DNA of 64,000 nt from contig JAJRQO010000036.1 of the NCBI GenBank assembly GCA_024280215.1, positions 62,001-126,000 on the forward strand, written 5' to 3'. Positions 5,108 through 8,078 of the stretch are shown piece by piece. Numbering within the stretch: the first letter of the stretch is position 1; each line of letters starts with the position of its first letter. The stretch is from Candidatus Zixiibacteriota bacterium. Lineage in GTDB: Bacteria; Zixibacteria; MSB-5A5; GN15; FEB-12. The notes beneath the pieces are model-generated. The model did no database searches. It saw only the letters and a list, made by a program, of their open reading frames with translations, and was not told the DNA's origin. The position numbers and the translations under genes are program-made.

Positions 5108-5647
5108 TTAATCTAATAAGACAACTATCGTTCCTGCTGTTTCTGCTTGAATTTCAGAACCTGATGGTATTTCTGCATCGCCACCTTTAATCAATAAACC
5201 CAGAACGCAACACAGAACTGTTACAACAATTGCTGTCCCCATTTTACTTTGTCCTTCAGCAAACTTAGCTCCGTACAATGGAACTATAGTTCCATCAACA
5301 GCATTAACTCTTCTAATTGACATACCAATTTTTGCTGCTTGACCAATAGCACCTCTTAGTTTAGACTCAGTAATTTCGCCAAAGACATCTGTTCCTGCTT
5401 TGATGACAGTCTTGCCATCAATAACAACATCATAGGCGACGGTAAAGCTAACTCTGTCTCCTATCTTATGTACCTCAGGGGAAATACTTTGATAAGTAAG
5501 TAGTGATACAATAGTACCAGCAGGAATTGTAACTTTAGTTTGAGCAAGGGCAATATCACATCCCATGATGACCCAAACAAAAGATAATAATGAAAGATAC
5601 AAAGTAAATTTTGAAAACATGCTCTTTTCGTTAACTTTTTTAAACAT
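5108..5647 (-). CDS. Exported protein with a barrel-like central domain, function unknown
   Basis: 179 residues. GGAGA lies upstream of the ATG at 5647. An N-terminal signal (about residues 10-36, ending around VIMGCDIALAQ) is followed by a conserved-looking domain: VTIPAGTIVSLLTYQSISPE, HKIGDRVSFTVAYDVVIDGK, KAGTDVFGEITESK, then one hydrophobic segment (TAIVVTVLCCVLGLLIKGG) and EIPSGSEIQAETAG. Proteins with the pattern 'pAGT.v...t...is...hkvGd.v.f.v..dvvvdGk.vi..Ga...Gev' occur as exported domains of unknown role in several phyla; this match is from memory. The Cys in MGCDIA could be a lipobox but is not ideal. It may be periplasmic or anchored in the envelope. Confidence 0.6.
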   Translation of the reverse strand: MFKKVNEKSMFSKFTLYLSLLSFVWVIMGCDIALAQTKVTIPAGTIVSLLTYQSISPEVHKIGDRVSFTVAYDVVIDGKTVIKAGTDVFGEITESKLRGAIGQAAKIGMSIRRVNAVDGTIVPLYGAKFAEGQSKMGTAIVVTVLCCVLGLLIKGGDAEIPSGSEIQAETAGTIVVLLD

Positions 5648-5679: not shown

Positions 5680-6948
5680 TTAAAATTTAAAACCTAAATT
5701 AAAATTTAATAATAAATTATTTTCCAATTTATTATTCATTCTTTTTGCTGACATTATAGAACCATAGATATTACCAGAATACCATCCAAAGGAAAAAACT
5801 CCCATTAACGTTCCGAGACCATAATTCTCATTATCAAAAGCTGAATAAGTTCCCCAAAAGAATAATCCGTTCACAATCAATGAGGATATTGCTGTTTTAG
5901 GATAACCATCGTACAAATATCCTAAACCTGGAACAATCGCAAGAACTCCAGCAATTGTAGAATTTCGATAATTTAAATTTTTTCCCTGCTCACAAGACAA
6001 GAGATTACTTTTCTTAAAAATGTCATATTGTGAATTTGATTTTATCAGATTAAATTCTTTAGAGGCTTTTTCCCAATTCAGTTCATAGGCATATGATAAA
6101 CCTTTTAGCATTATACTTTTATCAACTAAACTATTTTTATTGCTTACAATTGAATTAAAATGAACACGAGCAAGAGGGAAATTTCTTAATTTCAAATATG
6201 CTAATCCAATTTTATAGTTTAATTGATCTTGATTATCCGTAAAATTTTTATCTTCCAGAAGATACTTTCCCCAAGTAGCAACATGAAAATAATCTTCAAG
6301 CAGATAATAACAATCAAATATATTAAGATTAGCTTGTACATTCAATAAACTGTTTGGATAATAGGATATTAAGCGTTGATATTCAACTATAGCATTTATA
6401 AAATCACCATTTATTTGCAATGTAAAAGCAAAATTATATAGTAAGCTATCTGAAGCTGATGTTGTTTCCATCATCTTTTGATTAACTGTCAGCGAACTTA
6501 TTTGTGAATTATTTATGTTAGAATTACGTGAACCTGTTTCCTTACTGGCAACAATAAATTCTAATGGGTCATTATATCTAAGATAATCACCAATCTCAAC
6601 AATATTATAATTTTCTAAGTCATGTCCACATCTGTGCAGTCTATCAGAGGTCATCATAAAAGCTTTTATTGGATTGTATTTTTTAAAAGCAAGCTGACCA
6701 TATAACGAGCAATGTGGATGCATAAAACATGAGCTTCCTTTATAAGGACTTACAAATTTTTGATACAGCTTTATTGAACTATTAGTAAACAGGTTATGAA
6801 AAGAAATTACTGAAGTGTCTGTATGTAATAATCCCGTAATTTGAAAACTTTCTGATTTATCTGATAATAGAAAACCAGGTTTAATTGCGAAGGTACAAGA
6901 TGTTAATATTAAAAGTTGAAGAATAATTATAATAATTATTTTTTTCAT
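5680..6948 (-). CDS. YidD-like domain fused to TPR repeats and a C-terminal membrane region
   Basis: 422 residues with an N-terminal signal (LQLLILTSCTFA; possible lipoprotein Cys). Residues about 57-115 match the YidD (membrane insertion efficiency factor) pattern: IKLYQKFVSPYKGSSC, FMHPHCSLYGQLAFKKY, MTSDRLHRCG, with the family Cys and His-Pro-x-Cys-Ser kept. A helical repeat part follows (FAFTLQINGDFINAIVEYQR, YLKLRNFPLARVHFNSI), which looks like TPRs. Then come two or three hydrophobic segments (TIAGVLAIVPGLGYLYDGYP, SLIVNGLFFWGTYSAFD) of the kind seen in DUF5683-type proteins. Ordinary YidD is about 70-90 residues, cytoplasmic and next to yidC/rnpA. Here it is a domain of an exported protein far from those genes, so a different role is likely. 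Confidence 0.6.
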   Translation of the reverse strand: MKKIIIIIILQLLILTSCTFAIKPGFLLSDKSESFQITGLLHTDTSVISFHNLFTNSSIKLYQKFVSPYKGSSCFMHPHCSLYGQLAFKKYNPIKAFMMTSDRLHRCGHDLENYNIVEIGDYLRYNDPLEFIVASKETGSRNSNINNSQISSLTVNQKMMETTSASDSLLYNFAFTLQINGDFINAIVEYQRLISYYPNSLLNVQANLNIFDCYYLLEDYFHVATWGKYLLEDKNFTDNQDQLNYKIGLAYLKLRNFPLARVHFNSIVSNKNSLVDKSIMLKGLSYAYELNWEKASKEFNLIKSNSQYDIFKKSNLLSCEQGKNLNYRNSTIAGVLAIVPGLGYLYDGYPKTAISSLIVNGLFFWGTYSAFDNENYGLGTLMGVFSFGWYSGNIYGSIMSAKRMNNKLENNLLLNFNLGFKF

Positions 6949-7040: not shown

Positions 7041-7946
7041 TTACATCACCAACGTCAGTCCAATCTTAAATTCAAACCAAATTGCTTCTATCTCTTCCTG
7101 AAATGCTCCGACAATATCAAATGATATTTCGGTATTAAAACCTATATGTGGAGTTAGAATTTTCACAAGCCCCATCCCCATTCTCAAAGATTCATATGTT
7201 TCATTTAGAACTGTTTGGTCGGTATAGACAAGATTTGTATTCGTATCTAAAATAGAAACATTTAGGCTTAATTTTTCACTAAGATACCCAAAGCCAGCAT
7301 ATCCATAAAAATATGATTGTTCTTCCTTGTACGGAGCAAGAGGTCGGTTCATCTGAAACGAGACAAAATAACGTTTGGTGTCATAATCAAGAGATTGGTC
7401 AAGAATTGAAATTGATGGCTCGTTTGATTCAAAAATAATAAAATTTTTAGGAAGCTCTATGCCACCAGTGCTATAAGAAAACCTCAGCGAATATTCCTCG
7501 GCGACTGAAACCGCAATGTCAGCGTTTACACTTTTTCCTGAACTAAAACCATCATAATATTTCCCCGCTGGAGTAGTGTACCCCATTTGAAAAAATGCAC
7601 TCACACTCCATGGTTTTGCATTTATATCGTTTAGCCATTCAATATTATTATTTTGGTTTTGTGTCCGTTTGCTTTCGGGATCATAATAAACACCCAAAAC
7701 TATTTTTGATATATCGGCACCCTCTCCATTGAGAATTTTAGATATATCAGCAAAACTGATATACATTTTTTTTTCAGAGTATAAAAAGGATATAATTTTC
7801 AAGCGCACATTTTTTTTAAATGTAATTTTTTCAAAAACAGATCCATCTTTGGTGTAAATTGTTCCAGTTCGTTGTGCAGAAACAGAGCTTACCAAAAAAA
7901 CAAATAAAAGTAGAAATATTGTTTTGAAAAAATAATTTTTATACAT
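7041..7946 (-). CDS. Predicted outer-membrane protein, function unknown
   Basis: 301 residues from the ATG at 7946, preceded by GAGGG. A longer open frame reaches 8039, but only the later start puts a signal peptide at the N-terminus (MYKNYFFKTIFLLLFVFLVSSVSAQ). Mature residues begin RTGTIYTKDGSVFEKITF, a short beta-rich 'produces a message/key' type segment often found before barrels in FCB proteins. The C-terminal two thirds alternate polar and hydrophobic residues (AEEYSLRFSYSTGGIELP, YGYAGFGYLSEKLSLNVSIL, HIGFNTEISFDIVGAF) and end EFKIGLTLVM, like an outer-membrane barrel. Nothing specific is recognised. Confidence 0.6.
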   Translation of the reverse strand: MYKNYFFKTIFLLLFVFLVSSVSAQRTGTIYTKDGSVFEKITFKKNVRLKIISFLYSEKKMYISFADISKILNGEGADISKIVLGVYYDPESKRTQNQNNNIEWLNDINAKPWSVSAFFQMGYTTPAGKYYDGFSSGKSVNADIAVSVAEEYSLRFSYSTGGIELPKNFIIFESNEPSISILDQSLDYDTKRYFVSFQMNRPLAPYKEEQSYFYGYAGFGYLSEKLSLNVSILDTNTNLVYTDQTVLNETYESLRMGMGLVKILTPHIGFNTEISFDIVGAFQEEIEAIWFEFKIGLTLVM

Positions 7947-8078
7947 AAAAGCCCTCACAAATATAGACAACTTAATTTTATATATAATAAAGTAGCATCT
8001 TAAAAAAGTCAAGCAGACTCTATTTCCCATAACTATCATTTTGTCCCATAACAGGATACAAAATTAAGAATTTCGTTG

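Follow-up and report, generated by a model that had tools for sequence, protein, structure and literature searches.

An exported YidD domain fused to a TPR protein in a Zixiibacteriota genome: a possible fused form of a two-part envelope-assembly module

The canonical yidD gene encodes a small cytoplasmic protein and belongs to the locus rpmH-rnpA-yidD-yidC. YidD aids YidC and was cross-linked near SecYEG (PMC3573977, PMC8082313), reportedly by Yu et al. 2011. In the reviews consulted, YidD figures only as a putative insertion factor. The window analyzed here, a stretch of 64,000 nucleotides from a Candidatus Zixiibacteriota genome, contains a gene with a YidD domain that is not a canonical yidD gene, since its product is 422 aa long and carries a predicted export signal. 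The literature searched, in which subscription journals were largely outside coverage, yielded no description of an exported YidD. By its sequence, it would be a novel form within a known family, and its partner protein would be novel too.

The open reading frame lies on the minus strand (Table 1), and the plus strand across 5680-6948 is interrupted by stop codons throughout. The encoded protein matched the YidD family of Pfam (E 1.7e-12, 47.3 bits at a cut-off of 27, residues 58-108), the YidD equivalog TIGR00278 of NCBIfam (E 6.9e-15, 54.6 bits, cut-off 40) and TPR_6 (E 4e-6, 27.6 bits, cut-off 26.3), and it scored far below the cut-off of the T9SS family PorW/SprE (NF052312; 19.8 versus 250 bits). 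Its N-terminus starts with MKK and continues as a long hydrophobic stretch up to the lipobox-like LTSC. The original prediction, which hinged on a YidD profile match and had placed a YidD domain with its conserved Cys (C74, C80 and C107 in the fused copies) behind a signal sequence and in fusion with TPRs, is thus borne out. The separate normal yidD by rnpA that it had proposed to look for was also found: the genome (3.03 Mb, 96% complete) carries on another contig a canonical-looking yidD, its sole further YidD match over the cut-off (103 bits), which neighbors rpmH and rnpA and is followed by a yidC-like gene (names read from the sequence).

Table 1 Positions of the features of the YidD-TPR fusion and of the adjacent small gene (window coordinates unless a locus is named)
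Feature	Positions	Strand	Basis
Whole gene, exported YidD-TPR fusion (export predicted), 422 aa	5680..6948	(-)	ORF; Pfam and NCBIfam matches
N-terminal export signal, residues 1-18, lipobox-like LTSC	6895..6948	(-)	Hydropathy; predicted
YidD domain, residues 58-108 (C74, C80, R103, C107)	6625..6777	(-)	PF01809, TIGR00278
TPR region, residues 167-327	5968..6450	(-)	TPR_6 over cut-off; homology to unfused T
C-terminal region, residues 328-422 and stop, PGLGYLYDGY motif	5680..5967	(-)	DUF5683-like through relatives
Small exported ‘IPAGT’ protein, 179 aa, possible third member	5108..5647	(-)	Next gene downstream
‘IPAGT’ copies	Window 5108-5647; L062:3634-4173; L061:3421-3984; L178:298-903	(-) (window copy)	By eye

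Beyond what had been predicted, the C-terminal half of the window protein corresponds to an independent partner protein. We refer to the exported YidD as Y and to this TPR protein, which is likewise exported and has a DUF5683-like end of weak hydrophobicity, as T. Profile-profile comparison (hhalign, alignment A2 versus A3) of the fused C-terminal half with unfused T gave a probability of 99.95 and an E-value of 6.8e-38 over 247 columns, and the aligned part takes in the C-terminal region, residues 328-422. The claim of a DUF5683-like membrane end held in part. The window protein itself had no match to DUF5683 (PF18935) in Pfam up to E 1, and the likeness came through its relatives only: among seven unfused T homologs scanned, one was over the cut-off (L060:3756-4640, 27.1 versus 26.7 bits, E 4.7e-6), three matched below it and three had no match. 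As to the membrane, the C-terminus of the window copy is of borderline hydrophobicity, its best 19-residue Kyte-Doolittle mean being 1.22, and none of the 16 rows compared (the fused ones and the unfused ones of the window side) reaches a classical transmembrane helix there. A mean of at least 1.6 was reached by 0/16 window-side and 26/47 Desulfobacterota-side T sequences. Because this hydrophobicity is marginal, Y and T could be placed at either the inner or the outer membrane.

We placed 63 T sequences in a tree by a quick method with SH-aLRT supports and no bootstrap. A single branch (SH-aLRT 89) separates the eight fused rows from the rest, and the unfused T of locus L061, itself a long branch, adjoins the fused clade (SH-aLRT 97). 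One fusion event would be the simplest reading of this topology, and the scattered distribution hints at loss or transfer. Genome G011 carries the same parts as neighboring genes, namely an exported YidD of 150 aa and, after it, exported TPR proteins. At three loci (L058, L059, L060), two tandem T paralogs that belong to two different clades follow the exported YidD.

A first search of 61 genomes, comprising the window's own and 60 relatives, recovered near full-length fused copies in four: the window's own genome and three others (G048, G022 and G021, with the G021 copy truncated at the end of its contig), whose copies share 31–38% identity with the window protein. None of the three same-genus genomes searched had a fused copy. 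Across 132 genomes of the window's phylum, many of the surveyed genomes in this study being draft MAGs, 119 had a YidD match and 13 an exported YidD, which was fused in seven (G000, G022, G048, G081, G109 and the contig-end-cut G021 and G085) and separate in six (G011, G079, G094, G106, G111 and G120). Low or partial single YidD matches were left out (G026, G112, G045); the first two of these are canonical YidD, located at contig ends next to an rnpA-like gene. The label ‘FCB-type variant’ from the original prediction finds no support in this distribution, which is rare and patchy in the window's own phylum, includes one fused copy in a TA06 genome, and extends in the unfused form to 46 of 198 Desulfobacterota-like genomes. 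On plasmids, the window protein gave two weak YidD-only matches and T gave none.

The occurrence of Y and T is tightly coupled. In the window's phylum (n = 132; T called at E up to 1e-15), Y was present in 13 genomes, T in 13 and both in 12 (Fisher 5e-15, uncorrected for kinship), so that the T set equals the Y set minus G094 plus G096. In G094 (Y without T) the contig stops inside the next gene, and in G096 (T without Y) T starts at base 6 of its contig. The 198 Desulfobacterota-like genomes were sampled evenly across the group to which G139 belongs, which we take to be Desulfobacterota. Here, Y was present in 46 genomes (43 with at least two YidD matches and three with an exported-kind match only), T in 46 and both in 43 (Fisher 3e-36, likewise uncorrected for kinship). 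Y occurred without T in G303 (at a contig end), G276 and G178, and T without Y in G140, G155 and G233, each of which reaches a contig end. The eight exceptions in both sets are therefore contig ends or decayed remnants. In G276 (L141), T is absent and Y is cut to 69 aa; in G178 (L169), both genes are reduced to remnants. In both genomes, Y and T decay together. Outside the sample of 198, two genomes had Y and T (G136, G137), and in a third (G138), which has Y, T gave no match up to E 1e-10.

The two genes are also neighbors. In 40 regions fetched from the 46 Desulfobacterota-like Y genomes, T lay beside Y in 30, on the same strand every time. The order is not fixed, with 11 Y-T and 13 T-Y among 24 ORF-resolved loci, in several of which the two genes overlap by 4–11 bases. 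For the ten regions without an adjacent T, T was found elsewhere in the genome in eight, the remaining two being G303 and G276. Some further neighbors were noted by eye. In four loci of the window's phylum, a protein similar to ‘IPAGT’ comes next after the Y-T pair; two copies scanned had no Pfam match, and the window copy had none in NCBIfam either. The gene upstream of the fused gene (window 7041-8039, minus strand), which resembles L071:2586-3584, shares with it a ‘KDGSVFEKI’-type N-terminal stretch, is a probable barrel and had no significant family in Pfam and NCBIfam. A single-anchor TPR gene, named YfgM-like by its appearance, lies near T-Y in L115, L116, L120-L123, L145 and L162, and in L145 directly upstream of T. 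Two lipoprotein YidD copies from Desulfobacterales/Deltaproteobacteria hosts (L055:4851-5309, L057:4881-5264) adjoin what look like znuABC and Fur-type regulator genes. A seemingly conserved protease neighbor in 17 loci was discarded, as the cluster consisted of chained, unrelated TPR and membrane proteins.

We see about an even chance that the window gene represents, in fused form, an extracytoplasmic module for assembly that has two parts, Y and T, and is built on YidD. The evidence behind this reading is the homology of both halves, the confinement of the fusion to one clade, the adjacency of Y and T elsewhere, their tight co-occurrence, and the presence of a canonical yidD as a further gene of the window's genome. 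Export of both proteins, and hence a periplasmic location, is predicted from their N-termini: by a simple hydropathy rule of our own making, an export-like N-terminus was found in 13/13 window-side and 40/42 other exported copies and in 0/27 canonical ones, counting parsed copies (unparsed were 1/14 and 2/44 exported and 3/30 canonical rows). The window copy is possibly lipidated, and an uncleaved N-in anchor would likewise leave the YidD domain outside. In such a module, Y would rest on the membrane surface by its first helix, the TPRs of T would hold on to a client or machine, and the two together might help to assemble or insert envelope proteins. Their place would be on the outside of the inner membrane, or at the outer membrane in the case of the lipobox copy. 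An envelope-assembly role, at which the original prediction had hinted, is favored by the signal sequences and the gene context and is modeled on two analogs, YidD in its work with YidC/Sec and YfgM, a TPR protein, at SecYEG. The machine served by Y and T may differ by lineage.

The exported class is marked by a distinct set of residues. Because motif parsing was prone to error (3/58 exported rows yielded no motif, and at least four exported and 2/30 canonical rows were mis-parsed), invariance was taken from a 39-row alignment (A5) of exported rows and a canonical YidD, in which C74, P78, C80 and R103 are invariant. All eight fused rows share C74, C80 and C107. The residue before R103 is mostly Lys or Arg in canonical YidD and mostly Asp in the exported class, and the CHPxxxGGYDPVP end of canonical YidD has been replaced: the window protein has no C-terminal CHPxxxGGYDPV motif and reads RCGHDLENY, where canonical copies read CHPW..GGYDPV. 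The third Cys, retained in the fused copies, is absent from many T-coupled Desulfobacterota copies. Given the lost third Cys and the lost end, the chemistry of canonical YidD may not be kept. An AF2 model of the YidD domain alone (6553-6831), built on the 39-row alignment, reached a mean pLDDT of 82.9 and consists of three helices and a beta hairpin; in the whole-protein model (eight rows), the YidD part had low confidence and the TPR region a pLDDT mostly above 80. A fold search with the YidD domain alone gave only uninformative matches, with Z-scores up to 3.3 over 44–74 residues, and canonical YidD had no PDB relative by sequence (best E 0.06).

These residues could also be read differently, with the exported YidD domain binding metal (CPMHPHC ... 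RCGHD) or forming a disulphide in metal or redox homeostasis and with T as a scaffold. The invariance of C74 and C80 in all 39 rows would suit such a function, as would the Met and His residues between the two Cys in fused and lipoprotein copies and the znuABC-like genes, named by eye, beside the lipoprotein copies L055 and L057. However, the same Cys occur in canonical cytoplasmic YidD, many T-coupled copies lack the third one, and no metal genes were seen alongside the fused copies, which makes this explanation unlikely.

A second alternative builds on type II secretion, with which T is linked in 11 of its 46 genomes. In five of them (G244, G300, G273, G175 and G325; L148-L152), T directly follows gspE as the last gene of the gsp operon (gspF...E), and Y is located elsewhere. 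The gene order is gspD-gspE-Y-T in G298 (L109); T-Y is divergent from gspF in G271 (L154), has a secretin gene and an AAA-SPOR gene in its vicinity in G148, G186 and G222 (secretin loci L130, L138 and L140), and lies ~7 kb from gspF in G242. Pfam matches in representative loci comprised T2SSE (GspE), Secretin (GspD), T2SSC (GspC), T2SSK (GspK), GspL_C (GspL) and T2SSG; other Gsp names were assigned from gene order and appearance, and GspB-like hits of 36–63 bits (L119, L124, L133, L139, L143, L163, L054) were taken as chance TPR/TonB-like similarity and not counted. Six of the gsp-linked T sequences form one clade (SH-aLRT 94), so their association may go back to one event. Within the set of 198, T2SSG occurred in 37/46 Y genomes versus 98/152 others, a weak association (Fisher 0.047). 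An explanation of Y-T by type II secretion is nevertheless quite improbable. T2SSG (PF08334) is absent from nine of the 46 Desulfobacterota-like Y genomes, had no match in the window genome up to E 1e-6, and is missing from every Y carrier of the window's phylum, where its one weak match among 132 genomes (G089) is in a genome without Y; moreover, the fused copies retain the YidD Cys and the TPRs and are not relic-like. The T2SS was accordingly rejected as a general client, and the lack of a T2SSG match in the window genome makes the link lineage-specific. Within the reading of Y-T as an assembly module, the type II secretion system may be the machine served in one Desulfobacterota clade. A bolder version, which we put forward tentatively and would rather bet against, is that exported YidD and T constitute a new, obligate two-protein machine for envelope assembly that served as an add-on to various systems, plugging into the T2SS in that clade, and that is fused and joined by a third partner, ‘IPAGT’, in Zixiibacteriota.

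That the window protein is an ordinary YidD, its N-terminus a membrane anchor and its domain acting with YidC in the cytoplasm, is highly improbable despite the match to the equivalog model, because a canonical yidD is also present in the genome, exported copies mostly have Asp in place of Lys just ahead of the invariant Arg, and the N-terminus resembles an export signal, beginning with MKK and oriented N-in.

The nearly constant joint occurrence of Y and T in two bacterial groups points to an undescribed envelope-assembly device. It may also serve as a handle on YidD itself, whose action must fit outside the cytoplasm and alongside a TPR partner. In Desulfobacterota, Y and T are candidates for a pair of accessory genes of type II secretion. 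For annotation, the suspected risk of misnaming is real: six of six further exported YidD proteins scanned passed the 40-bit cut-off of NCBI's YidD equivalog model, which thus gives its name to exported, different proteins.

Compared with known systems, the exported form shares with canonical YidD (PF01809/TIGR00278; E. coli YidD) the family, the CxxxPxCS core with the following Arg, and the helical core. It differs by the export signal, the Lys to Asp exchange, an added beta hairpin and the TPR partner, and by its lack of the CHPxxxGGYDPVP end and its position outside the rnpA-yidC locus. DUF5683 (PF18935) has the C-terminal P-G-x-G...Y motif in common with T, one T being over its cut-off and the window protein itself having no match. 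The whole AF2 model matched translocon-associated YfgM (8zht_B, Z 17.3) and BamD (2yhc, Z 14.8) in a fold search that was filled by TPR proteins, whose folds are common. TPR similarity to BamD/YfiO (TIGR03302) was also seen by profile, at 24.6 bits for the window protein and 55.2 bits for one T; these scores stay below the 81.4-bit cut-off, and the DUF5683-like end and the YidD partner set Y-T apart. YfgM-PpiD, the ancillary SecYEG complex, resembles Y-T in having a TPR fold at the inner membrane on its periplasmic side (PMC9643414, PMC8082313). YfgM, however, has an N-terminal membrane anchor and a PPIase-like chaperone as partner, whereas T has a C-terminal hydrophobic part and is paired with YidD.
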